In this document: in pieces, positions 21,730-44,176 of the stretch
Position numbering within the stretch: position 1 is the stretch's first letter
Layout: the number at the start of each line of letters is the position of its first letter
NCBI GenBank assembly: GCA_900065925.1
Contig: LN890280.1
Coordinates: 178,451 to 242,450 of the forward strand
Source: Nitrosotalea devaniterrae
Lineage (GTDB): Archaea; Thermoproteota; Nitrososphaeria; Nitrososphaerales; Nitrosopumilaceae
DNA length: 64,000 nt
Reading direction: 5' to 3'
Made by a program: the position numbers and the translations under genes
The notes under the pieces: generated by a model
The model's input: the letters and a program-made list of their open reading frames with translations, nothing else
Database searches by the model: none
Told to the model about the DNA's origin: nothing

Positions 21730-22842
21730 ATGAACACTGAAACTGGAATTGAACCAGTGCAAAAAAAAATCAAGCTTTTTGATCCCTATATTGGTATTGA
21801 AGAAGAAAAAGCAGTAACAAGAGTCTTACATAGCGGCTTTTGGGCATCTGGGGCTGGAACTGGAAATGTTGCAAAATTTGAACATGCATTTAACAAGTTT
21901 GTTGGTTCCAGACAGTGTATTGCAGTAAATAGCGGAACTGCTGCACTCCATTTGGCACTAAAATTATTTGATATCCGAAATAAAGAAGTCATAATCCCAT
22001 CACTTTCATTTGTTGCCACGGCTCATGCTGTTTTGTATAATGGCGGAAAACCTGTGTTTGTAGATGTTGATAATGAAACTCTCTGTGTTGATCCAGATAT
22101 GATTAAGAAATCTATATCTAAAAAGACACAGGTCATTCTTCCAGTACATTTTGGAGGAATGCCATGCAACCTTACTGAAATAATGTCGGTATGTCATGAA
22201 AATAATATCAATCTTGTAGAAGATGCAGCTCATGCAAGTGGTGCGTCATTTAATGGAAAAAATATAGGGCAGCATGGACATGCAGTTTGTTTTAGTTTTC
22301 ATCCTGTGAAAAATCTGGCAATGCCTGGAGGTGGTGCAATAACCCTTAATGGAACTAAATCAAGCATTTTTGCTAAAACTCTAAAAGAATCTAGATGGTT
22401 TGGAATATCTGATAGGCACGGTCCATTTTATGATGTAAAAAGTGAGGGATGGAATTATTACATGAATGAATTTTCCGCAGCAATAGGAATAGAACAATTA
22501 AAAAAATTAGGTGTAATGAATAAAATAAGAAAAAACATTGCTAAACAATATTTCAATGAAATTAATCTAGAGCATAAAATGCCGTTAGATGAGAATTGTT
22601 CATATCATCTATACTGGATTCGAGTAAAAAATAGAAATAAATTCATCAAAAAAATGACAGAATATAATATAGAAGTAGGTATACATTACAAACCCATCCA
22701 CACCATGTCATACTATAATGTACGACAAAACCTTCCAATCACAAAGATGATTGAAAATGAACTTGTTTCAATTCCAATGCATCCAAATTTGACCGATTCT
22801 GATATCTCTAGAGTAGTAAAGACAGTCAATGAGTTTTCATAA
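21730..22842 (+). CDS. DegT/DnrJ/EryC1 sugar aminotransferase
   Basis: 370 residues, full length. PLP-lysine is K194 in FSFHPVKNLAMPGGG; D165 in VEDAAHASGA binds the pyridine nitrogen; VNSGTAALHLAL forms the phosphate pocket. It aminates a keto sugar nucleotide, and in this setting is a candidate PseC/LegC-type enzyme acting after the PseB-like dehydratase at 31738. Divergent from the sulfatase-fold gene and overlapping the convergent kinase-like gene by 17 bases. Confidence 0.9.
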   Translation: MNTETGIEPVQKKIKLFDPYIGIEEEKAVTRVLHSGFWASGAGTGNVAKFEHAFNKFVGSRQCIAVNSGTAALHLALKLFDIRNKEVIIPSLSFVATAHAVLYNGGKPVFVDVDNETLCVDPDMIKKSISKKTQVILPVHFGGMPCNLTEIMSVCHENNINLVEDAAHASGASFNGKNIGQHGHAVCFSFHPVKNLAMPGGGAITLNGTKSSIFAKTLKESRWFGISDRHGPFYDVKSEGWNYYMNEFSAAIGIEQLKKLGVMNKIRKNIAKQYFNEINLEHKMPLDENCSYHLYWIRVKNRNKFIKKMTEYNIEVGIHYKPIHTMSYYNVRQNLPITKMIENELVSIPMHPNLTDSDISRVVKTVNEFS

Positions 22843-23818
22843 GTATTTCTATTTTATTTTGTAATTTTAGCAGATTCAAGTGCTTGTCAAAATCCGACAT
22901 CCATAAATCAGATTTTTTAAAGTAATGCGTCCTAATGATATAGCATAGTCTTTGCAATGTAATATGCCTGAAAAAATAACATACGAGTTTTGTTCTCTCC
23001 TTTGTTATGGGATGATACTTCTTGTAAGTATCTATGAAATTTGTGACATGATTTTTGATTTCTCTGACATTCCTTTTTTTATATGATGCAAATCTATAGC
23101 TTGCAAACGCCAAATCCTCTTCAATTTCGCCAATTCTCAAAGAATTAAAATCAATAATTGCAGAAACTTTTCCATTGTTAAATATGACATTTTTTGGATG
23201 AAGATCCGAATGAATTAATTGTTTTGAACTTTTGATCTTGTTCATAATTTCTGCTTCAGAAATATCCTTTTCTATACATTCTGTAATGAATGAAATATTT
23301 CTGAATACTTTTTTATCAATAGACGAGAATTTCGCTTTTGTACATATTCCTTTAGATATTTTTTCCAATTCTGAACGCGTTAAAATTCTATATGGCTTAT
23401 TGTCAGTGGTGTGATTAAATCGTCTAGGATATGTGGATAATACCTTGTGTAGATTGGCAATGTTGCTTGATAGTTCTTTTAATTCCTTAACTGACCCATC
23501 ATACAAATGTCCTTCATAATATCTGGTCAAATAACAATTGTTTGTTACATCTACAAACTTGCCATTTTTTCTTATAATAGGTTCAGATACTTTAACCGCA
23601 TTTTCGGAACAAAATCGTAGTATTTTACAAACATCTTCTATTTTTTTTATCAAAGTCTTATCTGTATTAAAATGTAAAACATATTTTCCATTTTTCGAAT
23701 ATATGAGAAAATTCACACTATTAAGATCAATATGTCTTAATTTCACTATCTTCTTGATTGGTGTGATTTGCGGATAATTTTTTCGCAAGTATTCTTTTCT
23801 AACTATTATCGATTTCAT
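22826..23818 (-). CDS. Aminoglycoside-phosphotransferase (APH) fold kinase
   Basis: 330 residues. The kinase core is plain: an IHSDLHPKNVIFNNG catalytic loop and IIDFNSLRIG as the metal-binding DFG-like motif. The amino-terminal lobe has YVLHFNTDKTLIKKIEDV. APH-fold proteins phosphorylate small alcohols such as sugars, choline or homoserine. In this cluster a sugar kinase is likely, but the substrate cannot be read from sequence. It is 18 bases downstream of the NeuB-like gene and on the same strand. Confidence 0.83.
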   Translation of the reverse strand: MKSIIVRKEYLRKNYPQITPIKKIVKLRHIDLNSVNFLIYSKNGKYVLHFNTDKTLIKKIEDVCKILRFCSENAVKVSEPIIRKNGKFVDVTNNCYLTRYYEGHLYDGSVKELKELSSNIANLHKVLSTYPRRFNHTTDNKPYRILTRSELEKISKGICTKAKFSSIDKKVFRNISFITECIEKDISEAEIMNKIKSSKQLIHSDLHPKNVIFNNGKVSAIIDFNSLRIGEIEEDLAFASYRFASYKKRNVREIKNHVTNFIDTYKKYHPITKERTKLVCYFFRHITLQRLCYIIRTHYFKKSDLWMSDFDKHLNLLKLQNKIEILMKTH

Positions 23819-23836
23819 TTGATTATAAATGAAAGT

Positions 23837-24883
23837 CTAGTCTAACATGTTCCATTGTAGAAATGTTCCAGCAGTAATGTCTTGCATAGATCTTTTATCT
23901 AAGATTTTAAAACCGTCAGCTACCGAAATTCCTGCATTGCCAGGTCTTTTATAATCTAAATCTTGTTTGGTAATTTTTTCACCTTTCTTGATATCTCTGA
24001 TGGCAACTAAGCTTCTCCTTGCAGTTTCTTCAACTCTGGATGTTGACAAAATATCTGGATTTCCCATGGCTTGTTCTACTGCTCTGATATTTTCAACAAA
24101 TCTCTTTAATTCTGAGAGTTCTAACGACATGAAATGTTCTACATGTTCGATAGCTTTGTCAGTTGTTATTGTTTTTTCTAACATTGATGCACCCATCGCA
24201 ACTGCCGCGAAGTTCATAATATCACCAGGGGAATGATCTGCAAATCCGACTGGATATTGACATTTTTCTTGTATGGCATTTATCGCTCTTAGATGTACAC
24301 CGGCATTTTCAGTAGGATATCCTGATGGGCAATGCATTATTATTATTTGGTCATTTCCATTTTTTTCACATATCTTCATGGCTACCTCAACATCATGAAA
24401 TTTTTCTCGTCCATCAAGTATAATTGGTATGTTTGTTTTAGCTGCTTCTTCAATAAGAAGAACATTATTTATATCGCCTTTGCTTATTTTTAATGCGTCT
24501 ACTCCAGCATCTACCAGAAATTCGATAGATTCAGGAAATTCAGGTGTTGTAATAAAAACTAAATTCAAATCATGCGAATACTTGACAAGCTCACGCCAAG
24601 ACTCTTTGGGTAATTCTCTTCTTTTCAATGCATCATACACTAGTTCTTCTTTTTTACCATTCGCTGTTCCAAAATTTATCTTGATATCTTTTATGCCCAT
24701 AAGTCTGTCAGCATCTCCAGTAGCAAGTGTTTGAAATTTTATACCGTCTGCTTTTGCCAAAGATGTAGCATGTGTCATCATCTTTGCTTGTTCTAAATTA
24801 GCATAAGTAGCACCAGGCTCAAATGAAATAAAACATGGGTTTTCAGGACCAATAATCTTGTTTCTCATCTTCACTGTTTTCAT
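23837..24883 (-). CDS. NeuB-like synthase, divergent paralog
   Basis: 348 residues: TIM barrel (1-~280) plus a SAF domain (about 290-345, with RRSLVAIRDIKKGEKI). It aligns end to end with the NeuB-like protein at 25791, but the amino-terminal AEAGINHNG motif of that protein reads FEPGATYAN here, and of the two manganese-ligand histidines H217 is kept while position 238 is threonine (EKTIT instead of EKHFT). It probably condenses PEP with a different sugar, or has lost this reaction. A 10-bp inverted repeat (24906-24945) lies just upstream. Confidence 0.85.
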   Translation of the reverse strand: MKTVKMRNKIIGPENPCFISFEPGATYANLEQAKMMTHATSLAKADGIKFQTLATGDADRLMGIKDIKINFGTANGKKEELVYDALKRRELPKESWRELVKYSHDLNLVFITTPEFPESIEFLVDAGVDALKISKGDINNVLLIEEAAKTNIPIILDGREKFHDVEVAMKICEKNGNDQIIIMHCPSGYPTENAGVHLRAINAIQEKCQYPVGFADHSPGDIMNFAAVAMGASMLEKTITTDKAIEHVEHFMSLELSELKRFVENIRAVEQAMGNPDILSTSRVEETARRSLVAIRDIKKGEKITKQDLDYKRPGNAGISVADGFKILDKRSMQDITAGTFLQWNMLD

Positions 24884-24905
24884 ACATGTGTCATCTTTGA
24901 ACCTA

Positions 24906-24945
24906 TTAATGTCATTTACTAATATTTGTGGTTGTATGACATTAA
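24906..24945. promoter_or_regulatory. Inverted repeat before the divergent NeuB-like gene
   Basis: TTAATGTCAT (24906-24915) and its exact complement ATGACATTAA (24936-24945) are separated by 20 bases, so the half-sites are 30 bases apart, about three helical turns. The first arm is about 23 bases from the ATG at 24883 and covers the likely TATA region. A repressor operator is a fair guess. Confidence 0.4.
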
Positions 24946-24986
24946 ATCAATATCTAAAAAATTAATCATCCTTATGAATGTGATTC

Positions 24987-25733
24987 TTAAACGTATTTTT
25001 GATTTATTAATGATAATGATGGATTCTTCTTAAAAAGGTCTAGAATATCTTCCAATGTGAAAAATTGTTTATTATTGTATAGTTTTTCATAGACTTTCGA
25101 GATTAATTCAAAATCTTCTTTATAGTCTAACGTTAATCGCATCTGTGATAAATCATCATCATTAATTAATTCAAATTTTTTAAAGTCATTGGACTGCAAA
25201 ATGTAATCCGTTGGACAAATGAAAGTTTGAATGAATTTTTCAGTACTATCAAAACCACTTCGAGTTTTTTTCCATGCTAATTCTAAAGCAGTTGTTTTAA
25301 ATATTTCGTAATCTAATCCATGGGGATAATTTGATTTTCTGCCTACATTTACTAGGTCATAATTGTTTTCTAAAAAAATTTTCAAACCTTTGTCGATGAG
25401 ATTAAAATCTATTAGTGGACAATCCGCTGTGACTCTTATGATGTTATCCGGAAAAAATTTTTTACTTGCATTATAAAACCTATCTAATAAATTCTGCTCG
25501 CTTCCACAAAAATGATCTAATCCTATCTTTTCAGCTTCTTTGACCAATAACGCATTCTTATCATTTGAACCTGTAATCAAAATCATTTTGTCTACATTCT
25601 TTACCCTGTCTAATCTTTCTACAATAAGTTCTAGAATTGTCTTGTCAAAAATTTTCATTAGTATTTTACCAGGTAATCGGGTTGAACTGACTCTTCCTTG
25701 GATGAAAATGTGATTTTTCATTTTTATGGTCAT
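24987..25733 (-). CDS. SpsF/NeuA-like cytidylyltransferase
   Basis: 248 residues. The nucleotide-binding front QGRVSSTRLPGKIL is that of SpsF and CMP-sugar synthetases, followed by RVTADCPLID with the metal aspartates and SNYPHGLDYE. It should activate the nonulosonic acid made by a NeuB-like enzyme as its CMP (or similar) ester. It is upstream of the divergent NeuB-like gene on the same strand. A second start, residue 5 (25721), is possible. Function is inferred from family and from the neighbours. Confidence 0.85.
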   Translation of the reverse strand: MTIKMKNHIFIQGRVSSTRLPGKILMKIFDKTILELIVERLDRVKNVDKMILITGSNDKNALLVKEAEKIGLDHFCGSEQNLLDRFYNASKKFFPDNIIRVTADCPLIDFNLIDKGLKIFLENNYDLVNVGRKSNYPHGLDYEIFKTTALELAWKKTRSGFDSTEKFIQTFICPTDYILQSNDFKKFELINDDDLSQMRLTLDYKEDFELISKVYEKLYNNKQFFTLEDILDLFKKNPSLSLINQKYV

Positions 25734-25790
25734 TTCTGTATCTGAAATTATTTATGTGTAACCTAATTAATCATTAGTTAGAATAATAAA

Positions 25791-26843
25791 ATGATGCAAG
25801 TAAAAATAGGTGATTTCACTATAAGTCGTGATTCTGCCCCATTTATAGTGGCAGAAGCGGGAATAAATCATAATGGAGAAATTGAGAAAGCATTTGAAAT
25901 GATTCGTATAGCAAAAAAAGCAGGAGTCGATGCAATCAAATTCCAAACTTTTAAAGCTGAAGAATTTGTTGCAAATTCTGATCTTACATTTACCTATAAA
26001 TCACAAGGAACTGAAATAACCGAATCCATGATGGAATTATTCAAACGTCACGAATTTACAAGGGATCAATGGTTTGAAATTAAAAAGAAATGCGATGAAT
26101 TAGATTTATTGTTCTTCTCCACACCTCAAAATTATTCAGATCTAAAATTGTTATTAGATGTAGGAATACCAGCAATAAAGATAGGTTCTGATGACCTGAT
26201 CAATCTTCCTCTTTTAAAAGATTATTCGACTAGTGGATTACCAATAATCCTTTCATGTGGAATGTCTAACCTTGCAGAAATTTATGAGGCATTAAATGTG
26301 ATAGGTACTTTTGAAGAATATCCTACCATCTTACTTCTAACTACTTCTCAATACCCCACTCCAACAAAAGATGTGAATCTCCTCAAACTCACGACCTTAT
26401 CCGAGGCCTTTCCTAATTTACCATTGGGATTTTCCGATCACACATCAGGCCCTCTAGCATCATCACTTGCTCTTGCTCTGGGAGCCAGAGTTTTTGAAAA
26501 ACACTTTACAATTAATCATACTCTACCTGGCCCCGATCACTGGTTTTCCGAGGATCCGGCAAATTTGAAAATATGGTCAGATTCAATAAAGCAATCTTAT
26601 GAAATGTTGGGAGACAGAATCATTCGTCCTACTAAGATTGAAGAAGATATGAAAAATATTGCACGAAGAAGCATTGTTGCATTATGTGATATAAAAGAAA
26701 ATGATCTGTTTGATTCAATAAATCTTGGTCTAAGAAGACCCGGAAATGGACTTCCCCCAAAGATTCTAGATCAAATCGTTGGCAAACGAGCCACAAAGAA
26801 TATCAAAAAGGGAAATATATTACAATTTGGAGATTTTAAATAA
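25791..26843 (+). CDS. neuB: N-acetylneuraminate synthase (NeuB/SpsE) family
   Basis: 350 residues with the canonical signature AEAGINHNGE (21-30), FQTFKAEEF, KIGSDDL and TTSQYP, and both metal histidines H217 (SDHTSG) and H238 (EKHFT). A SAF domain closes the protein (about 290-348). It condenses PEP with an N-acyl hexosamine to a nine-carbon nonulosonic acid (sialic, legionaminic or pseudaminic type). Two bases separate it from the acyltransferase that follows, so they form an operon. Which acid is made is unknown. Confidence 0.93.
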   Translation: MMQVKIGDFTISRDSAPFIVAEAGINHNGEIEKAFEMIRIAKKAGVDAIKFQTFKAEEFVANSDLTFTYKSQGTEITESMMELFKRHEFTRDQWFEIKKKCDELDLLFFSTPQNYSDLKLLLDVGIPAIKIGSDDLINLPLLKDYSTSGLPIILSCGMSNLAEIYEALNVIGTFEEYPTILLLTTSQYPTPTKDVNLLKLTTLSEAFPNLPLGFSDHTSGPLASSLALALGARVFEKHFTINHTLPGPDHWFSEDPANLKIWSDSIKQSYEMLGDRIIRPTKIEEDMKNIARRSIVALCDIKENDLFDSINLGLRRPGNGLPPKILDQIVGKRATKNIKKGNILQFGDFK

Positions 26844-26845
26844 AA

Positions 26846-27304
26846 ATGGACTTATCAGAATTTCATAATCTATTCTCACTATTAACCAATTTTAAAAAAA
26901 ATAGATTTCATCCCATGGTGTGGATTAATGGTGATCCCCAGATTGGGGAAAATGTATCTATAGGATTTTTTTCAGAGGTAAATTCTAAAGATGCTAAAGT
27001 ACAGATTGGTGATTCTTGTGATATTGCATCTTTTGTATCCATTAACTGCGCAGATTCTCACAAAAAATGTATTGAATTATCTGAAAAAATTGAACGTAAA
27101 GACATCATACTTGAACAAAACGTGTTTGTAGGTTCTCATGTTGTAATTAAGGGCGGGGCATATATCGGACACCATTCTGTGATTGCATCAGGTACAATAG
27201 TGGAAGGGATCAAGATACCGCCATATTCTCTAGTCTCAGGTAATCCTATGAACATCAAAGAAGGATATTATGCGAAAAAAATTAACTCTGATGATAAAAA
27301 ATAA
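26846..27304 (+). CDS. Left-handed beta-helix acyltransferase (NeuD-like)
   Basis: 152 residues. Hexapeptide-type repeats are visible from about residue 30 to 130 (NPQIGENVSIG-type turns, IGDSCDIASFVSIN, LEQNVFVGSHVVIKGG, IGHHSVIASGTIV, YSLVSGNP). The catalytic histidine could be in ADSHKK or GSHV. It acylates an amino or hydroxyl group of a sugar. The methyltransferase remnant at 27291 overlaps its end, as in an original operon. Confidence 0.83.
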   Translation: MDLSEFHNLFSLLTNFKKNRFHPMVWINGDPQIGENVSIGFFSEVNSKDAKVQIGDSCDIASFVSINCADSHKKCIELSEKIERKDIILEQNVFVGSHVVIKGGAYIGHHSVIASGTIVEGIKIPPYSLVSGNPMNIKEGYYAKKINSDDKK

Positions 27305-27703
27305 CATTTTCAAAGGAGTGGGATGATAGATTCAAAGAAGGTACTCATCTTAGTGTTTGGCCATGGTCTGACTTGGTCAGTTACGTTATGCGATATGCCA
27401 GTCCTACTGGAAAAGATTTCTCTGTGTTAGAACTTGGGTGTGGTGGTTTTCTTTGTTACATTCTGACTATGCTAAAGGTCGAAAAGATTCTGACATGTTC
27501 ACAAAAACAGGATATGATTATGGACAATTTACCTCTGTGGGCAGAGTGCACTTCTCTAACAAAGAACACTTGCTAGATTTGTTCAATGGTTTCGATATTC
27601 TAGTTCTAGAACACAAAGAAATCAAGACAGAAATGCCTATGAATGAAAAGATCTTTGCTTCATGGAATCTGGTTGCACAAGAAAACTGTCTAGTTATATG
27701 AAA
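27291..27703 (+). pseudogene. Decayed SAM-dependent methyltransferase
   Basis: ATG 27291 overlaps the upstream stop. The first frame reads MIKNNIFK and meets TGA at 27324; a one-base shift near 27313-27320 opens EWDDRFKEGTHLSVWPW and then LELGCG, the methyltransferase glycine motif (27427-27447). The next frame carries a carboxyl end (HFSNKEHLLDLF, EHKEIK, FASWNLVA) ending at 27703. The middle of about 90 residues, including most of the SAM domain, is missing. So at least two frameshifts and an internal deletion. Confidence 0.75.
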
Positions 27704-27913
27704 TTCCAACTAGTAGATATGTTGTCATTAAAAACTGATAAATCTGTTCAATGCAATTATGTAAAGCCATTGAAAAATGATATATTAAGAATGGCGTTTA
27801 GTTGCAAAAAGGCACAACGTGATTTTAGATTCAAACTAATCTATAATCTAAGTGAGGGATTGGATGAATACATGCAATGGGAAAATACTTTGCAGACTCT
27901 AGAAGAAAAATGA
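27704..27913 (+). pseudogene. C-terminal fragment of an SDR sugar epimerase
   Basis: In a third frame, about 70 residues read FQLVDMLS, then YVKPLKNDILRMAFS, then YNLSEGLDEYMQWE and end at TGA 27913. This is the pattern of the last helices of NAD-dependent epimerases (reLvdml ... DilRmafSt ... ynleEGLkey). The cofactor and catalytic parts are absent, so the piece is a remnant left by a deletion that also clipped the methyltransferase. Confidence 0.65.
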
Positions 27914-28090
27914 AAAACTCGTTTTCTTAAGTATTTATAAAAAAGTTTTCGTCAAATCTGAATCGAATTCAGCTATCTGAAGTCTTCAGGTTGTGTTAAC
28001 ATGAGGAAAGTTGTAAGTACACCGTATATGTGCATCCTTCACTAAAATTTCAATTTTCTAAATCAAAAGTCATGGATTTAGTTTAAATCC
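27914..28090. other. Intergenic gap without a gene
   Basis: AT-rich, several T- and A-runs and one 13-codon frame (ATG 28000) that looks random. I see no RNA or repeat in it. With the two pseudogenes the decayed stretch without an intact gene is about 790 bases (27305-28090). Confidence 0.5.
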
Positions 28091-29038
28091 TTAATACATG
28101 GAATCATATTCTTTAGGCATTTTTAGATATGGCTCGAATCTAGGATTTGGTTCTACAATTAATTTTGAATTCTGTGGAAATAGTGTAGATATATGATAAT
28201 AGCATTTTGCAAAAAATTGATTTATTTTCGTTCTATGTTTAGGAAATCTGTCCTGCATTGGTTCGTAGTATTTCTCGATTGGCACTTTCTTAGTAAGTAG
28301 GTCTTTCCATTGTTCGTTGGCAAGATCAACAAGACTTGGTCTTGATTCCCAATTTTCAAAAACTTTTGGATTCTGATCTGCATATTTTGTAGCAGTAAAT
28401 CTAAAGTGAATTTGTGCTCTCCTGTATTTTTCCCTTCCAACACACGACCCCTTGTGAACTATTGCTTCATGAAAAAATAATAAATCGCCAGCTTTTACAG
28501 GAACACAAATTTCATTTTTCAAATGACCTCTTATCGTAGAATTACTTCCTTCCAAATCTTTGTTGCCCTTCTTATGACTTTTTGGTACGACATAAAAACC
28601 GCATTCATTATACAGTGGAAGAGTTGCCTTTATGCTAATTGTCTTTCCATCCAGTTCTATAGCGTCTCGGTGCCAATTCTGCCATGTACTATATCTGTAA
28701 GTTGTATGCATTCTGTTAAATGACATGAAAATATCATTATGTCCATAATGGGCCATGATCTCATTTGAATATTCTGCTATTTGTGAATCCATTATGGCTT
28801 TGAATATGTCAATCTCAAAAATATCTGGATGAAAAACATGTTCGATTTTCTCTATCATTTTATTCGAAATTTTTCCATTTGCTCTGTGATACGGATAAAG
28901 TCGTTTTTCACACTTTTCAATCATTCGCCTACTTGCTTCTCTTGCCCTTTCAAGTGATTCGTATGCCACATTTTTACTTACTACTAGATATCCTTCCTCA
29001 TCAAAAAATTTCTTTTGTGCTTCTGAGAGAAAGTTCAT
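28091..29038 (-). CDS. Phytanoyl-CoA dioxygenase (PhyH) family oxygenase
   Basis: 315 residues from ATG 29038; a TATA-like element 27 bases upstream argues against the TTG at 29059. The iron facial triad can be placed: H-x-D in WHRD and the distal histidine in IVHKG, followed by RRAQIHFR with the 2-oxoglutarate arginine. It should hydroxylate a small molecule or glycan intermediate using Fe(II) and 2-oxoglutarate. Homologs occur in antibiotic and glycan clusters. Substrate unknown. Confidence 0.85.
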   Translation of the reverse strand: MNFLSEAQKKFFDEEGYLVVSKNVAYESLERAREASRRMIEKCEKRLYPYHRANGKISNKMIEKIEHVFHPDIFEIDIFKAIMDSQIAEYSNEIMAHYGHNDIFMSFNRMHTTYRYSTWQNWHRDAIELDGKTISIKATLPLYNECGFYVVPKSHKKGNKDLEGSNSTIRGHLKNEICVPVKAGDLLFFHEAIVHKGSCVGREKYRRAQIHFRFTATKYADQNPKVFENWESRPSLVDLANEQWKDLLTKKVPIEKYYEPMQDRFPKHRTKINQFFAKCYYHISTLFPQNSKLIVEPNPRFEPYLKMPKEYDSMY

Positions 29039-29152
29039 TACTAATTTGGATGGAAACAACTATTAATATTTTTCACATTTTTAACATTTGACAGTTACGA
29101 TTTAACCAACCAAGTAATAAGAATTAATATGTAAGGAATAATCAGAATATCG

Positions 29153-29863
29153 ATGAACATACTGGTAATTGTTGCACACCCTGACGACGAAATTTTGGGT
29201 GCAGGTGGCGCAATTCTAAAACATACTCAAAAAGGCGATATTGTAAAAATAATATATCTAGCTACTGGGATTACTTCTAGACGAAAATCTGGACATCATA
29301 ATGTTTCATCATATGAATCTAAAACAAATGATGTTAAACATATGAAAAAAGAGATTGAAGATCTACGAACTGATGCAAGGAAAGCTTGTAGCCTATTGAA
29401 AGTCAAAAATGTGAAATTTTATGAATTTCCAGATAATGAAATGGATTCAATTCCACTTTTAAAAGTAGTAAAGACTATTGAGACAGAAATTGAGATGCAT
29501 AAACCTACTCGGGTTTATACTCATCATTATGGAGATCTGAACGTTGATCACCAAATAGTATATGAAGCAACACTGACTGCATGTAGGCCAGTTAATACTA
29601 CTGTTAAGGAGCTGATTTGTTTTGAGGTTCCTTCTTCAACTGAATGGAATTATCCCATTACCTTCAATCCTAATTATTTTGTTAATATAAAATCTCAATT
29701 AGAAGTAAAAATAAAAGCCATGGAAGCGTACAAAAATGAAATAAGAAAATTTCCGCATCCTAGATCATCAGAAAACCTCAGAGTAGTTGCTAAGAGATGG
29801 GGCAGTGTTTCTGGTAATGAAGTCGCTGAAGCATTTGAAATCATACGAATGATTGAAAAGTAA
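29153..29863 (+). CDS. PIG-L/LmbE family N-deacetylase
   Basis: 236 residues. The zinc motif AHPDDE (residues 9-14, VAHPDDEILGAGG) and the later HHYGDLNVDH box with two histidines are those of LmbE/PIG-L deacetylases, which remove acetyl from GlcNAc-type substrates. The full sequence length and a tail with EAFEIIRM are normal. In this cluster it may free an amine for reacylation or methylation. The next gene (WbqC-like) is convergent, 3 bases away. Confidence 0.9.
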   Translation: MNILVIVAHPDDEILGAGGAILKHTQKGDIVKIIYLATGITSRRKSGHHNVSSYESKTNDVKHMKKEIEDLRTDARKACSLLKVKNVKFYEFPDNEMDSIPLLKVVKTIETEIEMHKPTRVYTHHYGDLNVDHQIVYEATLTACRPVNTTVKELICFEVPSSTEWNYPITFNPNYFVNIKSQLEVKIKAMEAYKNEIRKFPHPRSSENLRVVAKRWGSVSGNEVAEAFEIIRMIEK

Positions 29864-29866
29864 TTT

Positions 29867-30556
29867 TTACCAATTTTTAGAATTGGCTAAAATAGTTTTG
29901 GTATTGTCTCCCTCATTGAAAAGAACATCTATTATAGAAAGATATGGTATGAATTCTCCGTGAATCTGTCTATATATTGGGTGTTCGAATTTCTCAAATA
30001 TTACTTCAATTCCGGCATTCTCAAACAATTTTACATCCAAATAATTTTTTCCTATTTCTCCAGAAATATAACAAGTTGCTCCTAATTTTTGACAAATTTC
30101 TAATAATTTAGTGGATTTTGTTGATTTTGTATCTAGCTCGGATGATCTAACTGTTTTTGTAGTCAAATTTAACACTGAACAAAAATATTTGATAAACTCT
30201 AAATTCAAGTCTATTAGTTTTTTCCATTCTTTACTTAGAATATTCTCAATAGAATTCCAGTATCTGTCAAAGAAAGGCGCCACTTTATAATTTTCTTTTA
30301 TGCTGTTTCTGTGTTTTTCTCTCCAATCCATATCATTAGCTATTTTGATTTCATTAAATTTTATATCATGTGGTTTTGATATGGGAACTGGTAATATTTT
30401 GGTTCCTTGAAATGTTCGAATTTTATTTTTGTTATCTCCGCCTCCCGTGGAATATAGAACATCATCAAGATGTACAAATACATCACATGTTTGTATTTTT
30501 TTAAAATATCCTAAATATGGCAAATAACCTGGTTGTCTAATTATGACTTTTGTCAT
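29867..30556 (-). CDS. WbqC-like family protein
   Basis: 229 residues. The front RQPGYLPYLGYFKKI and DVFVHLDDV, then NRRIR-like KNKIRTFQGTKILPVPI, follow the WbqC family, found in O-antigen and nonulosonic-acid clusters and thought to act as acyl or amino-acid transferases. No catalytic residue is known to me. It shares the island context with PseG- and PseB-like genes just beyond. Reaction open. Confidence 0.82.
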   Translation of the reverse strand: MTKVIIRQPGYLPYLGYFKKIQTCDVFVHLDDVLYSTGGGDNKNKIRTFQGTKILPVPISKPHDIKFNEIKIANDMDWREKHRNSIKENYKVAPFFDRYWNSIENILSKEWKKLIDLNLEFIKYFCSVLNLTTKTVRSSELDTKSTKSTKLLEICQKLGATCYISGEIGKNYLDVKLFENAGIEVIFEKFEHPIYRQIHGEFIPYLSIIDVLFNEGDNTKTILANSKNW

Positions 30557-30650
30557 TTATTATCATGAAGAAATACTTCTAGTTTTCTATTTATCATTTG
30601 CCTCTAATTCTATCGATGATATTTTCATAAGAAATACTATAATTTTACGT

Positions 30651-31655
30651 TTAATCCATATTAAGAAGATTTTTTGCTACGCGCAAACACCCCTTACCAT
30701 CTACTATTTTTCTTCCTAATTGATAGATTTTTTTCCTATTTTCATAATTATCCAAAATACCAATAATTCTTTCTACCCTTGTAAAATTATCGTCCCAATA
30801 ACCATAATTCACGGCGCAACCATTATTTTCCATGCTTATTGCTGTTGGTAATTGATGCTTATCAACCGGAATTAGTATCGAAGGAACACCGAGACATGCT
30901 AATTCATAGGACGTTATACCAGAGGATGAAATTACAAGATCCTGGTTTACAAATAGCGATGCCATGTCTCCCACCGATGTTCTGATTTTCACATTATCAA
31001 ATTTACTGGCATAATTGATTAACGTGTCACTTTTCTTAAAACTTGGACCTATAACAGCAGTTATTCTATAATTTTTTTTACCAAAGAATCTTACAAATTT
31101 CTTTGCTAAGCCCGATTCATCAGATCCACCAAATGTTAAAAGTATATTTCTAATCCCTCTTTTTGAAACTGAATATTCTTTTCGTTTATCAAGAAATTCT
31201 CTTCGCAGAATCATGTATTTTGGACCTGTATAAATTTGAGATTTTTTATTGATTTTTTTATAATTATGATAGTTATTGACAATTGAACCATTAAACAAAT
31301 AATTGGAAAATACTTTCATGTTGCCCAAATCATCTATTATTGCGGTTTTGCAAATTCCATAAAATAATTCTCCATAAAGTTCATTATGTATTGGCAAATC
31401 AATTATGAGATTTTTTATGGAGTCTAGAATGTTTTTACATGATTTTATTTCATCCCTGATATTTTCACTCTTTATAGTCATGAATGGAATTTTCTTATTT
31501 TCAATATGTGATAGAAATTCGTCTTTATTTTTTACAATAAATGTTACTTCCTTTCCTTGCTTGCAAATCTCTTCTGCTAATGATAAACATCTGTAAAAGT
31601 GACCGGAACCTATTTTCTTCCCCATGTCAACTCGGATGCCAAAATCATACTTCAC
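30651..31655 (-). CDS. PseG-like UDP-sugar hydrolase
   Basis: 334 residues. The amino-terminal motif RVDMGKKIGSGHFYRCLSLA is the PseG/SpsG signature, including the G-x-G-H histidine. A GT-B-like second half has LTFGGSDESG, ISSSGITSYELACLG and PVDKHQLPTA. PseG releases the 2,4-diacetamido-trideoxyhexose from UDP before NeuB-type condensation. With the PseB-like gene (31738) and DegT genes it supports a pseudaminic or related route. Confidence 0.85.
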   Translation of the reverse strand: MKYDFGIRVDMGKKIGSGHFYRCLSLAEEICKQGKEVTFIVKNKDEFLSHIENKKIPFMTIKSENIRDEIKSCKNILDSIKNLIIDLPIHNELYGELFYGICKTAIIDDLGNMKVFSNYLFNGSIVNNYHNYKKINKKSQIYTGPKYMILRREFLDKRKEYSVSKRGIRNILLTFGGSDESGLAKKFVRFFGKKNYRITAVIGPSFKKSDTLINYASKFDNVKIRTSVGDMASLFVNQDLVISSSGITSYELACLGVPSILIPVDKHQLPTAISMENNGCAVNYGYWDDNFTRVERIIGILDNYENRKKIYQLGRKIVDGKGCLRVAKNLLNMD

Positions 31656-31737
31656 ATATACTGCATGACAAACTTACCTTATGAATTTGACCCTATAGAA
31701 AAATTCAATTATCTATCTATTTACCGTAAATTTACCA

Positions 31738-32733
31738 ATGACACTAAAAAATAAGAAAATTCTCATTACGGGAGGTACTGGTTCTCTTGGTCATGCATTG
31801 ACTTCTCGCTTGTTAAAGATGGGTGTAGAAACTGTCAGAATTTACAGTAGAAATGAAAATAAACAAGTCCAAATGGATTCTGAATTCAAAGACTCACGAC
31901 TACGTTTCTTTGTGGGTGATGTTCGTGACTTGCAGAGGCTTACACGAGCACTAGAAGATGTTGATATTGTTTTTCATGCTGCAGCCTTGAAACACGTACC
32001 TGTGGTAGAGTACAACCCATTTGAAGCAATAAAGACTAACGTGCTTGGATCACAAAACGTCATAGATGCATCTCTTATGAATAATGTGGAAGTTGCTCTA
32101 TGCATTGGTACTGATAAAGCCGTCTCACCACTCAACACATATGGTGCTACTAAATTACTAATGGAAAAATTATTTGCCACAGCACATAATTATTTGAATA
32201 AACAACGTCACAAAACTAAATTTCTTGCAGTAAGATATGGAAACGTGCTTGGTAGTAGTGGTTCTATTGTTCCAAAGATCATTTCTCAGATAATGGCAAA
32301 CCAAAAAATCACAATCACAGATCCCACTATGACAAGATTTAACATTACTATGAACCACGCTCTGGATTTTATTTTCAGAGTTCTTGAAAAAGGTGATAGC
32401 GGTGAAATTTTTGTACCGCAGTTAAAGGCATATCAGTTAAGTGATATGCGTGATGTATTGCTTGATTTATTAAAATCTGATAACAAAACACAATTAATTC
32501 CAGTTAGAACTGGTGAAAAATATCATGAATCATTGATTAATCAAGATGAGTTGAGATATACTTATGATGACGGCGAAGATTATGTAGTTACCCAGAAACT
32601 AGATAATCTAAAGAAAAGAGGTTTCAAAAAGGCTACTTTGAAGAAAGAATATTCATCTGATAATGTAGAATTATACTCAAAAGATGAGCTAAAGAAGATT
32701 CTCATTAAGGAAAAATTGATTCCAATTAAATAA
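31738..32733 (+). CDS. pseB: PseB-like UDP-GlcNAc 4,6-dehydratase (inverting)
   Basis: 331 residues. TGGTGSLGHAL forms the NAD(P) loop; FHAAALKHVP, the GTDKAVSPLNTYGATKLLMEKL active site (T-D-K, Y-x3-K) and YGNVLGSSGSIVP are typical of PseB/CapD-type short dehydratases. It starts the pseudaminic or bacillosamine-type pathway from UDP-GlcNAc. Divergent from pseG-like gene with an 82-base gap. Substrate inferred. Confidence 0.9.
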   Translation: MTLKNKKILITGGTGSLGHALTSRLLKMGVETVRIYSRNENKQVQMDSEFKDSRLRFFVGDVRDLQRLTRALEDVDIVFHAAALKHVPVVEYNPFEAIKTNVLGSQNVIDASLMNNVEVALCIGTDKAVSPLNTYGATKLLMEKLFATAHNYLNKQRHKTKFLAVRYGNVLGSSGSIVPKIISQIMANQKITITDPTMTRFNITMNHALDFIFRVLEKGDSGEIFVPQLKAYQLSDMRDVLLDLLKSDNKTQLIPVRTGEKYHESLINQDELRYTYDDGEDYVVTQKLDNLKKRGFKKATLKKEYSSDNVELYSKDELKKILIKEKLIPIK

Positions 32734-37541: not shown

Positions 37542-38489
37542 TCAACTGGACATAATCCAATAGTTTTTCTGTATGCCGCCCCACTTCTTCTTGTATTCTA
37601 GTATTCCTTCCTCCTTTTTTGATTTGGGAATTGGATTTACGCCTGAAAGATCATACCATTTCATCTTATGGTCAATTCCCCATTCTATTATTTTCCATTT
37701 GATAAGGTCTTGTGCATATAGTTTTTCTTCAGTATCTTGTTGTGAACGTGCTACGCCCCATTCGTTTATGTAATTGTTGAAAAAAGAAAATAATAACCCA
37801 CCAATAGATATTCCATCTTTTCTTGCAAGGAATCCTGAAAATCCGGCATTATGTAGAAATTTCCACATATCATGAAACTCCTGAGCATTACCAGATGATA
37901 AATTCATGGATGATCTATGCTTATCTAAAAGAGATGAATATTCATCTAACGTCTTGTCTGTTATCTCTTCTACTATGACATTTCTTTCTATGGATCTTTC
38001 TATGTTTTTACGTGCGTTATGTTTAGACATTCCTCCATAAAGTTCCTCTTTTGATTTAGTTAAATCTATCAAAAAAGTGCTCCACAGAGTCTTGTTGAAA
38101 TATGTATATTCTAAATTCGAAAGAGGATGAGTTGTTCCATATACTTTTTTATAATTTTGTTTTATGTGAGACAAAAAGAATGTAGAGCATTCTTGTGAAG
38201 ATGTAATTGGTCCATAATTCCACCTTATGGAATTCTTTAATTTTCTTACTACTCCATGCAAAAAATGTGGAACTCTTTTAACATTAGATATGTATTCAAA
38301 CAATAATGTCTGCAGTAAAATATTCCCCGATGAATCAAAAACTCGACAAAATATTGGATTCCACTTTAACCATTTTCTTGCATATTCCGAGTATTCCACA
38401 CTGTTGAAAATATTTCCTGTAGTATTTGACAACAAGTGTTTATTCCAATCTTGTGGTGGCTCATTTTTTAATTCTAATGAAAAGTTCAA
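37542..38489 (-). CDS. FemAB/GNAT-type acyltransferase
   Basis: 315 residues. A GNAT-fold core typical of FemAB-like proteins: SKHNARKNIERSIERNV in the first half and IIEWGIDHKMKWYDLSGVNPIPKSKKEEGILEYKKKWGG at the end, the WYDLxG-type strand and following loop. In bacteria these add amino acids from aminoacyl-tRNA to lipid II; here they may acylate an amino sugar of the surface glycan. Operon with the GT4 gene that follows. Confidence 0.8.
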   Translation of the reverse strand: MNFSLELKNEPPQDWNKHLLSNTTGNIFNSVEYSEYARKWLKWNPIFCRVFDSSGNILLQTLLFEYISNVKRVPHFLHGVVRKLKNSIRWNYGPITSSQECSTFFLSHIKQNYKKVYGTTHPLSNLEYTYFNKTLWSTFLIDLTKSKEELYGGMSKHNARKNIERSIERNVIVEEITDKTLDEYSSLLDKHRSSMNLSSGNAQEFHDMWKFLHNAGFSGFLARKDGISIGGLLFSFFNNYINEWGVARSQQDTEEKLYAQDLIKWKIIEWGIDHKMKWYDLSGVNPIPKSKKEEGILEYKKKWGGIQKNYWIMSS

Positions 38490-38615: not shown

Positions 38616-39785
38616 TTGGAAAGAAAAACGTTATCTGTTACAACTATGTCTGTCCACAAATTAAATAATTTTAATCGATTGGATACTCTAGATAAAATTA
38701 AAAAAATCGTTTTTAACTCAATTAAAAAAACTGATCTAGATCTTTCAGGATTAACTGTATTGACAGAAGCAGCTACGGGTAATTGGGCATATACTCCATT
38801 TATTGCTGCTCTCTCTGGTGCTACTGTTTTGTGTTTTACAAAGGATTCCAAATATGGTACGACAAAAGAAATTATTTGTAATTTCAATACTCTTTCAAAA
38901 TTTTTTGGTCTTAAAAAGAAGATTCATGTTTATAAAAAAATAACAAAAGAAATTATCAGTAAGGCGGATATAGTAACTAATAGCGGCTTATTGAGGCCCA
39001 TTGATAAAAAATTCATTAATTCGATGAAAAAAACAGCGGTAATATCGTTAATGTGGGAGCCATGGGAATTCCGAAAACAAGATCTTGATCTTGTCAATTG
39101 TATGAAACGGGGTATTGCTGTTTTAGGTGTTAATGAAGATAATCATATTCTAAATGTTGCAAAATATAATGGTGAAAATATATTGAAAATTTTATCTGCA
39201 AATAAGATCCCTGTAAAAAGAAAAAATATTATACTGGTTGTTGAAAACAGAATTTATTCTCATGTTATTAAATCCCTTATTTCACATGGAGCTAACGTAA
39301 TATTAGTTTCAGAATCAATATGTGACGAATTAAATGATTTTGATGTTCCAGTTATACGTGATCTTAAAAGTCCTAAAATTATATCATTTCTAAAGAAATG
39401 CGATCTAATGATAATTAACTCTGCTCCGTTAAAAAAGAAAATAATCGGTGGAAAACACGGTCTATCGATTTCACTTCTCAAAAAAATAAATCCTGATATG
39501 CGAATTTTAATTTATTTTGGTAATGTAGATTATAAAGGACTCAAAAAAGCAAAATTGGTATGTATTCCTATGACAAATCCTGGTCTTGGGCACATGCCTT
39601 GGACACTTGACTTCTTAGGTCCTAATCCAACTATTGAGTTAAATGCACTTGGACTCAAGGTGGGAGAACTACTTGCAAAAAATAGATTATCTAATTTTGA
39701 AGTGGAAGAGGCTAAACAAAAGGCTCTTACAAGTCCATTTTGTTTAGACTTTACAGCAGAGCAGAAAAAACATTTTCACAGATGA
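38616..39785 (+). CDS. Unrecognised protein with Rossmann-like segments
   Basis: 389 residues from TTG 38616, or 379 from ATG 38646. A TATA-like element near 38594 fits the TTG better. Two alpha/beta halves can be seen: the first with LTVLTEAATGNWAYTPF and ADIVTNSGLLRPI, the second from about 200 with KNIILVVENRIYSHVIKSLISHGANVILVS, which resembles an NAD-binding fold (DSH-like) without a clear GxGxxG. No catalytic motif found. It lies between the FemAB and aminotransferase-fusion genes, so a sugar-linked role is plausible. Confidence 0.65.
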   Translation: MERKTLSVTTMSVHKLNNFNRLDTLDKIKKIVFNSIKKTDLDLSGLTVLTEAATGNWAYTPFIAALSGATVLCFTKDSKYGTTKEIICNFNTLSKFFGLKKKIHVYKKITKEIISKADIVTNSGLLRPIDKKFINSMKKTAVISLMWEPWEFRKQDLDLVNCMKRGIAVLGVNEDNHILNVAKYNGENILKILSANKIPVKRKNIILVVENRIYSHVIKSLISHGANVILVSESICDELNDFDVPVIRDLKSPKIISFLKKCDLMIINSAPLKKKIIGGKHGLSISLLKKINPDMRILIYFGNVDYKGLKKAKLVCIPMTNPGLGHMPWTLDFLGPNPTIELNALGLKVGELLAKNRLSNFEVEEAKQKALTSPFCLDFTAEQKKHFHR

Positions 39786-39808: not shown

Positions 39809-41155
39809 TCAAAAGTAGTGTGATTTTACCACTCCTAAAATGTAGTCAAGATCTTTATGAGTCAAGTTTTGGTGAACAGGTAAAATGATGGCATTTGATT
39901 TATGATATACTCCTGCCTCAATACCAAATGACTTTAGCCTTTCTAACAATTTGTACGGAATTTCTGATTTTAAAAGATATGCATGAGGGACTACACCGTT
40001 TTGTAATTCTTTGAAGGGAGATAGACCAATCTTTTTAAATCCTGAATCTAGATGTGAATAATTTCTTATTCGAAGCGACTCGTATTCTGAAATTTTTTCC
40101 AATCCTACGCTGACACCTTTTCTTATAACCTCTCTTTTTGCAAAATCAAATATTCTCAGTTTTTTTTGTTCATTGTCATCAACATGCATTCCTAGTAGCA
40201 TACCACCATATTGAACCGGGAAAACTTTTGAAAATGAGTAAATTGAATAATTGCCAAATGTACCTATTCTTTTTCCATTGATTGATGTGGTGATGGAATG
40301 AGCACAATCTTCGATCAAAATAATTTCATTTTTGATTGCATATTCACGTAATTCTTCGATATTCTGTACTGGAAATCCCCATTCATGAATAGCGTATATG
40401 ACCTTAGTTTTTTTAGTTATTTTTCTGGAATGCTTACAAATAATCTCAATTTCATCTGTCACATCTCTTGCAACATATGGTGTGTTAAATGACGTGACCA
40501 ATGTGACAACATCAGTTTTATTGAGGCCGAGTTTTTTTAATATCAGGTAAATTGCAGTTCTTCCATCTGGAAGTAATGTGAAGTCTTTTCCTGTAAACTC
40601 TGTGATTTTTTCTTCTACATTATTTACTTCGCTGAATGTTTGCTGGTTGTTGTAATATGGATCTAATCTTATTAATGGTTTTACTCTGGGGGGATTGTAT
40701 ATTGTTGGATAAGTTTCACATGAAAATTGTTGTTTAAAATGGTCTAATTCATTTCTATATGATGTACCAAGATCAAAATATCTGTATTTTGATTTTGCAA
40801 ATTTTTTTACTACATACCATATCAAAAATGAGTTAGCTTGAGCGTTTCTACCGTCTTCTTTTGATACACTATATTTGTAAAATATGTTTAAATTAAAGAA
40901 CTCGATCACTATTCCAGCTACGATCTTTTTCTTCTCATCTAAAGCGTAATAGCATCTTTGGTTTTTTTTCAATTTTTTGGGAAACAACACGTCATTAATT
41001 TTTGAGGTTGTTTTGGATTCCACTGCACTTAATCTAAGGTTTTCAGCCTTTTTGATTGCCCATCGAGCCTCTTTTGATATTTTATTCCAGCTTTCTAATT
41101 CTAGTGTTATCAAATAACCGTTCTTTACATAATCTTTTCCTGTATATGGCATCAT
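39809..41155 (-). CDS. GNAT/FemAB-type domain fused to a DegT aminotransferase
   Basis: 448 residues. Residues ~20-155 look like the second half of a FemAB/GNAT acyltransferase, with RYFDLGTSYRNELDHFKQQFS. Residues ~175-448 are a DegT/DnrJ aminotransferase: DGRTAIYL for the phosphate pocket, EDCAHS (D283), and SFSKVFPVQYGG with K310 as PLP lysine. The amino-terminal domain of the usual aminotransferase is shortened. It may amine and then acylate one sugar. Starts at ATG 41155 or 41152. Confidence 0.75.
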   Translation of the reverse strand: MMPYTGKDYVKNGYLITLELESWNKISKEARWAIKKAENLRLSAVESKTTSKINDVLFPKKLKKNQRCYYALDEKKKIVAGIVIEFFNLNIFYKYSVSKEDGRNAQANSFLIWYVVKKFAKSKYRYFDLGTSYRNELDHFKQQFSCETYPTIYNPPRVKPLIRLDPYYNNQQTFSEVNNVEEKITEFTGKDFTLLPDGRTAIYLILKKLGLNKTDVVTLVTSFNTPYVARDVTDEIEIICKHSRKITKKTKVIYAIHEWGFPVQNIEELREYAIKNEIILIEDCAHSITTSINGKRIGTFGNYSIYSFSKVFPVQYGGMLLGMHVDDNEQKKLRIFDFAKREVIRKGVSVGLEKISEYESLRIRNYSHLDSGFKKIGLSPFKELQNGVVPHAYLLKSEIPYKLLERLKSFGIEAGVYHKSNAIILPVHQNLTHKDLDYILGVVKSHYF

Positions 41156-41181: not shown

Positions 41182-42129
41182 CTATTTCAACTTCCTGTTC
41201 ATCTTCCAGATCAAGTATCTGGTTATTCCTTCTTCCAACTTTACTTTTGGTTTATAACCTAGAACTTTCCTTGCGTGGGAAATGCTTGCCAGGTGTCTTT
41301 TCACATCCCCTTTTCTTTCCTGTTTGAATGTGATTTTACTATCGATTTCTTTACCTGTTATATCTTGAAATTTCTTTATCATTATCTTTGCAATATTGAG
41401 TACACTGGCTTCTTTTCCACTACCAATGTTGAAGGTTTCCCCTATGAAATTCGAGCTTTGATCTGCCAGCATGATTCCTTCACATGTGTCATCTACATAT
41501 GTGAAATCTCTTGTTTGTTTTCCATTGCCAAATATTATTGGTGATTGATTATTTGAAATTCTTCTAAAAAAATTGGGTATCACAGCTGCATATGTGTCAT
41601 CTCTCATAAATTCTCCATAGCTATTAAATGGTCTAACTGTTACAGCTTTGAGATTTTCAGTTTTCTCAAAACCCTTCACATAAAGATCTGCAGCAGCTTT
41701 TGAACCCGCATAGATTGTACTAGGAAATAGTGGATGGTCTTCTCTCATGGGAATGTGTAAGGCTGTTCCATAAACCTCGCTTGATGATACATGAATCAAT
41801 TTAATCTTTAAGTCACTACAGGTTTTTGCAACTAGATACGATCCGTAATCATTTACTCTTACCACCTCTTCTGGTTTATCAAAGGACATTGTCAGGGGTT
41901 TTACTGCCAAATGAAAAACTACATCAGCTTTTCTAAATGCAGATCTAAGGTTATTTGGATTCAGGATGTTGTCTTTTTTAATGCATACTTCTCTTGGAAT
42001 ATTGCTAATTCCACTACCGTTTGACAAATCATCATAGACTAGTACATCATAACCTTTTTGATGCAGCTTTTTAGTCAGATGTGAACCTATGAATCCAGCT
42101 CCACCTGTGACAACCGCGCGACGTTTCAT
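41182..42129 (-). CDS. NAD-dependent epimerase/dehydratase (extended SDR)
   Basis: 315 residues. GGAGFIGSHL at the front, VSSSEVYG and YAGSKAAADLY (catalytic Y and K), RPFNSYGEF and DFTYVDD. Family length. It would epimerise or dehydrate an NDP-sugar, acting near the two aminotransferases on either side; gaps of 26 and 63 bases on the same strand suggest one operon of three genes (43269 to 39809). Confidence 0.88.
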   Translation of the reverse strand: MKRRAVVTGGAGFIGSHLTKKLHQKGYDVLVYDDLSNGSGISNIPREVCIKKDNILNPNNLRSAFRKADVVFHLAVKPLTMSFDKPEEVVRVNDYGSYLVAKTCSDLKIKLIHVSSSEVYGTALHIPMREDHPLFPSTIYAGSKAAADLYVKGFEKTENLKAVTVRPFNSYGEFMRDDTYAAVIPNFFRRISNNQSPIIFGNGKQTRDFTYVDDTCEGIMLADQSSNFIGETFNIGSGKEASVLNIAKIMIKKFQDITGKEIDSKITFKQERKGDVKRHLASISHARKVLGYKPKVKLEEGITRYLIWKMNRKLK

Positions 42130-42192: not shown

Positions 42193-43269
42193 CTAGATCT
42201 CTCTTATTGTCTTGCAAATGAATTCCTGATCATCTATTGTTAGCTCCTCATGTAGCGGCAAGGAAATGGCATTTTTATATAAAAATTCAGAGTTTTCTAA
42301 ATTACCTTTTCGTCTATATTTTCTAAAGGCTGGCAAACAGTGTAAGGCATAGGTCCCAATCTGAGTTTCTACATTCTGTTGCGCAAGTTTGGTTCTTATC
42401 TTATCTCGTAAGCCAGGCTTTGTAATATAACACACATAGGACTGATATGTATGCCTTGAATTTTCAACTGGCTTTTGTTTATGAACAAAGTCCACTTTGG
42501 AAAGTAATTCGTCATAAATTTTTGCCTGTGAAATTCGTTTTTTGATTATTCCTTCAATCTTTTCCATTTGTGCAAGTCCTATTGCACTTAGAATGTCTGA
42601 AATCTTGTAATTGGTTCCAGCATTTACAAATTCTGAACCTACCTTTCCAAACATCTTGTACGAACTGCACTTGTCTGCCAAGTTCTTATCATTGGTTGTT
42701 ATCATTCCACCTTCACCAGTTGTAATTATTTTTCGTGGGTGAAAGCTAAAGCAAGTTATATCTGCTAAAGAGCCCACATACTTGTTTCCTATCTTTGTTC
42801 CTAAATTTGTAGCTGCATCTTCTAAAATCTTGATTCCATCTCTTCTAATTTTGTAAAAATCTTCTTCTAACGGATTTCCAAAAAGTGATACTGGTAAGAC
42901 AAATCTAGTGGACTCATCTAATGATTCTTCTACAATTTTTCTTGTAACATTCATTGTCTCCTTATCAACATCCACCAAAACTGGTATCCCACCTGCAAGA
43001 TCTATTGTAAGAACTGTAGCAGGAAATGTAAAATCAGAAACTAGAACTTTTTTCCCCTTTACTCCCAAGCTTTCAAGAGACGTATGAAGAGACGTAGTTG
43101 CCGACGTTGTTGCAATGGCATATCTTGCTTTCACATATTTAGCAACTTTTTGTTCAAATTGATGAGTTATTTTTCCTTCGGTAAGTATCTTTGAATCTAA
43201 CACTTTTTTTATTAATGACATCTCACGAGTATCAATTTTTGGACGCATCAGGAATATTCTTTTTTTCAT
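42193..43269 (-). CDS. DegT/DnrJ/EryC1 sugar aminotransferase
   Basis: 358 residues. PLP lysine K180 in FSFHPRKIITTGEGG, D151 in LEDAATNLG, and TTSATTSLHTSL at the phosphate pocket. The fold is complete. It aminates a keto sugar; with the SDR and fusion protein downstream it looks like the head of a small three-gene operon. Which position (C3, C4, etc.) is aminated is not clear. Confidence 0.9.
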   Translation of the reverse strand: MKKRIFLMRPKIDTREMSLIKKVLDSKILTEGKITHQFEQKVAKYVKARYAIATTSATTSLHTSLESLGVKGKKVLVSDFTFPATVLTIDLAGGIPVLVDVDKETMNVTRKIVEESLDESTRFVLPVSLFGNPLEEDFYKIRRDGIKILEDAATNLGTKIGNKYVGSLADITCFSFHPRKIITTGEGGMITTNDKNLADKCSSYKMFGKVGSEFVNAGTNYKISDILSAIGLAQMEKIEGIIKKRISQAKIYDELLSKVDFVHKQKPVENSRHTYQSYVCYITKPGLRDKIRTKLAQQNVETQIGTYALHCLPAFRKYRRKGNLENSEFLYKNAISLPLHEELTIDDQEFICKTIREI

Positions 43270-43310: not shown

Positions 43311-43381
43311 AACTTTGCTAGATTCAAGTCAAATGAGGTACCAAAAACTAATTATTGGTTGTAAATACACCTTCTTTCAAT

Positions 43382-44176
43382 ATGGTTAATAAATTAAAAG
43401 ATGTGGTTGCAGGGTTGGGGGAAATAGGAACACCTATCTTGCAACTTATCTCAAAAGCAAATCTATCCGTAGGTTATGATATTAATGAGAGACTAATGGA
43501 TCTTGATAAATTCAAAAAATTTGAAAAACTTGATACTTGCTTTTTGCATATCTGTATCCCATATAACAACAATTTTGATTCAAATGTACTATCATTATAC
43601 AAGAAATTCAAACCTGATTGTATTGTAATTCACAGTACAGTAAGTCCAGGCACTACAAGTAAAATACAATCAAAACTTCCAATTCCTGTAATCTACAGCG
43701 CAACAAGGGGTGTTCACAGAAGAATGTTGCATGACATGAAAAGATATGTAAAATTCTATGCGGTAGATCCAAATGCACCAAAAGCAAAATGGGCATCTAC
43801 TATATACTCTAATATGCTGAAAAAATGCGGCGTCAAAACAAAACAAATGTCAGGACCTCTTACACTAGAGCTTGCCAAGATAGTAGTTGATACATCCTAT
43901 TATGGTTGGCTAATTACATATGCACAACTAAGTAACATGATTGCTATCCAAAACAAAGTAGACTATGATGAGATGTGGTCATTTGCAGATGAGATTCACA
44001 AGTATCTTGGCAATAGACCGAAAATGTTTCCAGGATTTATTGGAGGACATTGTGTGATTCCTAATCTTGAATTAATACGTAATCCAACTTTGGATATGAT
44101 TAAGGAAATCAATGATATTTACGCAAAAAAAGTCAAAAACTCAAAGTCAATAGCAAAAAAATATCAATCTAAATAG
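43382..44176 (+). CDS. Short UDP-sugar dehydrogenase-like protein lacking the C-terminal domain
   Basis: 264 residues from ATG 43382. The NAD loop VAGLGEIGTPIL, the HSTVSPGTT segment and a late FIGGHCVIP with C224 match the first two domains of UDP-glucose/UDP-ManNAc dehydrogenases, but the third, UDP-binding, domain (about 150 residues) is absent and the lysine-aspartate after the catalytic cysteine is missing. It may act on a different substrate or not be a dehydrogenase. It stands before the SDR gene at 44266. Confidence 0.72.
   Translation: MVNKLKDVVAGLGEIGTPILQLISKANLSVGYDINERLMDLDKFKKFEKLDTCFLHICIPYNNNFDSNVLSLYKKFKPDCIVIHSTVSPGTTSKIQSKLPIPVIYSATRGVHRRMLHDMKRYVKFYAVDPNAPKAKWASTIYSNMLKKCGVKTKQMSGPLTLELAKIVVDTSYYGWLITYAQLSNMIAIQNKVDYDEMWSFADEIHKYLGNRPKMFPGFIGGHCVIPNLELIRNPTLDMIKEINDIYAKKVKNSKSIAKKYQSK

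Follow-up and report, generated by a model that had tools for sequence, protein, structure and literature searches.

A single unbroken gene on the minus strand of the window (the whole stretch of 64,000 nucleotides from Nitrosotalea devaniterrae that was analysed) joins a FemAB-type transferase domain to a compact DegT-type PLP domain, and the same two parts occur as adjacent genes in many bacteria and in some archaea. The identity of both domains and the pairing of FemAB with compact DegT are held with high confidence. That the fused gene is the single-gene form of a conserved two-gene unit, FemAB-type transferase followed by compact DegT, is given about an even chance. Coordinates of the relevant features are compiled in Table 1.

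Table 1. Features of the fused gene and of the two sugar genes of its unit, in window coordinates.
Feature	Position	Strand	Basis or remark
Fused FemAB-type/compact-DegT gene	39809..41155	-	448 aa, ATG start, last 3 bases are the stop
FemAB-type GNAT domain, residues 9-152	40700..41131	-	TIGR03019, FemAB HMM, AF2 and Foldseek
Lys141 (Phe140-Lys141)	40733..40735	-	aligned with catalytic Lys305 of FemX
Compact DegT-type PLP domain, residues 154-448	39812..40696	-	PF01041, phmmer, AF2, Foldseek
Asp283, pairs with PLP N1 in the DegT fold	40307..40309	-	invariant in alignments A3, A4 (as D134) and A5
Lys310, expected PLP Schiff-base lysine	40226..40228	-	invariant in alignments A3, A4 (as K161) and A5
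NAD-dependent sugar 4,6-dehydratase/epimerase, LegB/dTDP-glucose-dehydratase-like	41182..42129	-	TIGR04180 E=4e-54, TIGR01181 E=7e-51, below equivalog cut-offs
Ordinary DegT sugar aminotransferase, PseC/LegC-like	42193..43269	-	Pfam E=3e-89; TIGR03588 E=1e-73, below equivalog cut-off

The preliminary description had reported one frame without break joining the two parts and had left the strand unstated. The fusion is real: the 448-aa reading frame was unbroken on the minus strand, and the plus strand was full of stops. Scored in blocks of 50 codons, the codon log-odds of the gene stayed at 0.18-0.32 per codon throughout; those of the other frames were strongly negative. No ATG, GTG or TTG codon was found between residues 121 and 215, and with the even codon log-odds this means that both halves form one chain, if the gene is expressed. 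A frameshift artefact or a second start as origin of the join was rejected on the same two grounds, and an assembly join is unlikely in a genome that is assembled as a single contig of 1.8 Mb and is 99.8% complete. Judged by the open reading frames of the window, its gene content fits an ammonia-oxidising archaeon of the Nitrososphaerota. The boundary between the domains was located at about residue 153, not at residue 170 as proposed before. Motif YFDLGTSYRNELDHF occupies residues 126-140 of the fused protein.

For the N-terminal half, NCBIfam TIGR03019 (FemAB, XrtA-associated) matched residues 67-154 at E=5e-7, below its equivalog cut-off. On the fused protein, Pfam Acetyltransf_6 (PF13480) reached 12.8 bits against a cut-off of 22 (E=0.13) and Pfam FemAB (PF02388) gave no match; phmmer of the N-terminal half against the PDB returned nothing useful. 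Of two profiles built without the window protein, one from all FemAB rows found the half at E=3e-19 and one restricted to the FemAB neighbours of compact DegT at E=2e-12; among 1000 shuffles the best E was about 0.015. Modelled alone by AF2, with an alignment that included FemAB rows, the half adopted a GNAT fold (pLDDT 80.5); its part of the full-length AF2 model was poor. Top Foldseek matches of the separate model were Sbb17, FemX, MprF and related transferases that use aminoacyl-tRNA (E 2.7e-8 onward), and FemX-type PDB structures matched at E~1e-8 to 1e-6. The GNAT fold and the FemX-type matches rule out that residues 1-152 are an aminotransferase N-terminal region, which had been named beforehand as a finding that would overturn the fusion. 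In the FemAB tree the window branch was too long to place.

The single GNAT domain of this half corresponds to the second one of FemAB proteins; their first is missing here and would not fit upstream, since the neighbouring gene ends about 27 bases away. In FemX, the first GNAT domain helps to form the acceptor site and Lys305 is catalytic (PMC12945691). The FemAB profile placed its conserved 'fK' on F304-K305 of FemX 1NE9, and lysine was found at the Lys141 column in 27 of 27 ungapped FemAB rows. An acetyl-CoA GNAT as first choice for this half was rejected, as no CoA-binding R/Q-x-x-G-x-G/A loop was visible and the FemX-type lysine was present. By its sequence counterpart in FemX, Lys141 suggests aminoacyl-tRNA as donor. 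With FemAB/FemX and the streptothricin-type Sbb17/Sba18 the half shares the GNAT fold of the second domain and the FemX active-site Phe-Lys, whereas the window protein has one GNAT domain instead of two and is fused to a PLP domain. Lacking the first GNAT domain, the FemAB half could be impaired, or the DegT half could be used instead. A second FemAB-type protein, two-domain-sized (37542-38489, minus strand; Pfam FemAB E=3e-8), is encoded two genes from the fusion; its gene overlaps a glycosyltransferase gene and has no DegT gene beside it.

The C-terminal half matched Pfam PF01041 (DegT_DnrJ_EryC1) over residues 175-336 at E=7e-21 (75.2 bits, curated cut-off 19.8). Foldseek returned DegT aminotransferases at E=2e-17, and block pLDDT in the full-length AF2 model was about 76-98 over residues 181-448. 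Asp283 and Lys310 lie where the preliminary description had placed them, and all residues invariant in the compact DegT class are kept. The nearest solved structures by profile were ordinary DegT proteins. Fold, PLP Asp and Lys, His257 and GG motifs are common to the DegT half and the DegT/DnrJ/EryC1/StrS family (PF01041; QdtB, WbpE, PglE, ArnB). Compared with that family, the half is shorter (~295 aa against ~360), its Ser-Phe-x-Lys active-site loop is two residues shorter, it is fused, and its class is paired with FemAB. Both the half and its compact class lack the segment that carries the G-x-N-x-R motif: the motif (G-x-N-x-R/Y/K after the catalytic lysine) was found in 24 of 24 ordinary DegT, against at most 3 chance matches in 56 compact loci.

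These 56 loci (L065-L120) were collected from 84,980 species genomes with the DNA pattern EDxAH ... YSxxKx[FL]PxxxGG, in which ED and K were already fixed. Five stand-alone Bacteroidota proteins of 304-317 aa matched most of residues 138-445 (E=3e-48 to 1e-43); by phmmer, the stand-alone L109 matched residues 154-445 at E=3e-48. In the maximum-likelihood tree, the window DegT half was sister to the five Bacteroidota proteins (95/85), two Cytophagales proteins were the next sister (99/98), and ordinary DegT formed a clade of their own (100/99). The class was also present in Patescibacteria, Omnitrophota, Chloroflexota, DPANN archaea and others; its Patescibacteria/Nanoarchaeota branch is nearer to ordinary DegT, and a FemAB neighbour is mostly missing there. 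For some relatives the nearest named family is TIGR04422 (putative PLP-dependent aminotransferase, 315 aa), to which L087 scored 50 bits, below the cut-off of 75 bits; the window protein gave no match. In the literature library searched, no paper came up for TIGR04422 or for FemAB combined with DegT. To our knowledge no activity is on record for any compact DegT, and with the G-x-N-x-R motif missing from the class, amination by compact DegT is only putative.

A FemAB-type gene was the immediate same-strand neighbour of compact DegT in 25 of the 56 loci, which had been picked by the DegT active-site DNA motif only and not by FemAB. The paired genes mostly overlap or are separated by a few bases. 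In the closest clade FemAB lies directly upstream in all six visible loci (L109, L093, L087, L102, L071, L118; L074 and L108 were left out because their upstream side is cut off), and this gene order is the domain order of the fusion. Among ordinary DegT, an adjacent FemAB-type gene was found in 0 of 37 (39 control loci), a rough comparison, as the controls were mostly archaeal with flanks of mostly 1.5 kb. It had been held that homologs with the two parts independent would speak against the fusion. The parts are indeed separate genes in relatives, but these are adjacent, co-oriented and usually overlapping or nearly so, which supports a functional link.

A second fusion was detected in a Gammaproteobacteria MAG (L066:1-1719), where Acetyltransf_6 (E=1.5e-18) is followed in one frame by DegT (E=8e-27); the sequence starts at a contig end, leaving the N-terminus open. 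Since L066 is far from the window protein in the DegT tree, the fusion arose at least twice. With the gene pairing in relatives also in view, the fusion is no chance event. Searches of 60 relatives, of 250 genomes from the family and of 398 from the phylum found no orthologue of the window fusion, so that a lineage-wide fusion was rejected; the window copy is the one example known from this archaeal phylum. Scans of genome and viral collections with back-translated peptides, using the window protein as single query, gave no lead; tblastn of plasmids and phages matched ordinary DegT only, and L109 had no match in plasmids. The simplest view of the window copy is that its compact DegT line came in by horizontal transfer, the FemAB half being unplaced.

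DhpH, from dehydrophos biosynthesis, likewise has a PLP domain fused to a FemX-like domain, which in DhpH uses aminoacyl-tRNA. Its PLP domain is N-terminal and its FemX-like domain C-terminal, the reverse of the order in the window protein; DhpH has two GNAT domains and a phosphonate peptide context, against one GNAT domain and a glycan context here. The PLP subclass also differs, and the likeness is one of domain make-up. The earlier statement that no enzyme of this make-up had been described was too strong given DhpH and L066. The C-terminal half of DhpH has been described as FemX-like (PMC12945691).

The dehydratase gene lies upstream of the fused gene within one unit, which also holds the ordinary DegT; the latter fell outside the compact class in the tree. 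Among the genes at the loci of the closest relatives are FdtA, ordinary DegT and hexapeptide or formyl transferases; these loci resemble the FdtA-FdtB-FdtC dTDP-3-amino-3,6-dideoxyhexose pathway (FdtA, ordinary DegT, hexapeptide acyltransferase). To that set they add FemAB and compact DegT. The window has dehydratase and ordinary DegT beside the fusion, with no FdtA noted. L151 (L151:3478-7466) has FdtA, compact DegT, hexapeptide acyltransferase, FemAB and ordinary DegT in a row; it is filed in a viral collection and is probably bacterial in origin, its flanks looking like flagellar regulators. Elsewhere in the window, 21730-32733 holds nonulosonic-acid-type genes: a PseC-like DegT, two NeuB/PseI-like synthases, a cytidylyltransferase-like protein, PseG (above cut-off) and a PseB-like dehydratase. 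On the plus strand, 38616-39785 encodes a 389-aa protein, convergent with the fusion, with no family above cut-off, and 43355-44176 a 273-aa protein, by eye like a nucleotide-sugar dehydrogenase fragment, with no Pfam match above cut-off.

The reading preferred here is that the gene lies in a surface-glycan locus of this Nitrososphaerota ammonia oxidiser and is the fused form of a conserved pair acting on an amino sugar, a proposal that may be right or wrong in about equal measure. The neighbouring dehydratase would make a keto sugar and the ordinary DegT would aminate it; the fused protein would then act on the resulting amino sugar or at a second position of that sugar. The compact DegT half would catalyse a PLP-dependent step, most probably another amination; as the locus already has an ordinary DegT, this half probably serves a second PLP step and not the initial amination. 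Its FemAB partner would place an acyl or aminoacyl group onto an amine, its most likely role, with the Lys141 site suggesting an aminoacyl-tRNA donor, and the fusion would hold the two active sites together. In this detail the reaction has at best an even chance of being correct.

The preliminary description had proposed a bifunctional enzyme: amination of a keto sugar by the DegT half would be followed by acylation of the same new amine, here taken with acyl-CoA, by the FemAB half. Asp283, Lys310 and every class-invariant residue are kept and the dehydratase could supply the keto sugar, as this scheme would have it, and the FemAB-type/DegT-type fusion behind it stood. The proposed reaction fared less well and is now thought unlikely: the unit has its ordinary DegT already, and so do the loci of the nearest relatives; the DegT half belongs to a class that lacks the G-x-N-x-R motif; and the FemAB half shows the FemX-type lysine in place of a visible CoA loop. 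Slightly less likely still is a scheme on the lines of DhpH, with an amino acid attached from aminoacyl-tRNA by the FemAB half and the PLP half working on that amino-acid moiety or some other PLP substrate instead of a keto sugar. The fusion in DhpH of a FemX-like to a PLP domain, the counterpart of FemX Lys305 and the complete sugar-amination sets that accompany compact DegT argue for it; the PLP half, however, is DegT-type by fold and sequence, and that family is best known for nucleotide-sugar substrates.

That the compact class as a whole has lost the G-x-N-x-R motif, that the first GNAT domain is absent and that the ordinary DegT already covers amination would all fit a PLP half that is no longer an enzyme and serves as a structural or substrate-holding partner in place of the lost domain. 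This is improbable, because the counterparts of Lys310 and Asp283 are invariant in aligned members from many phyla, even if the search motif demanded ED and K. Decay, or an accidental fusion of two truncated genes with no function, would account for the half-length FemAB part and for the lack of an orthologue in 250 family genomes, but is very improbable given the even, gene-like codon bias, the retention of all class-invariant residues and a domain order that is the order of the conserved gene pair. The widest form of the preferred reading is rather speculative: FemAB and compact DegT would make up an unrecognised widespread module (in bacteria, DPANN archaea and one Nitrososphaerota archaeon) that puts amino acids from aminoacyl-tRNA on amino sugars of surface glycans, with compact DegT as a new functional class of PLP enzymes and the window protein as its fused single-protein form.

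Gene fusions reveal partners, and the rare fusion described here led to a recurring pairing of FemAB-type and compact DegT genes across many phyla. It points to a widespread and so far uncharacterised two-enzyme step in the making of surface sugars. Should aminoacyl-tRNA be the donor for the FemAB half, the reaction could conveniently be sought with this one fused polypeptide, and intermediates of translation would feed the synthesis of archaeal surface glycans.
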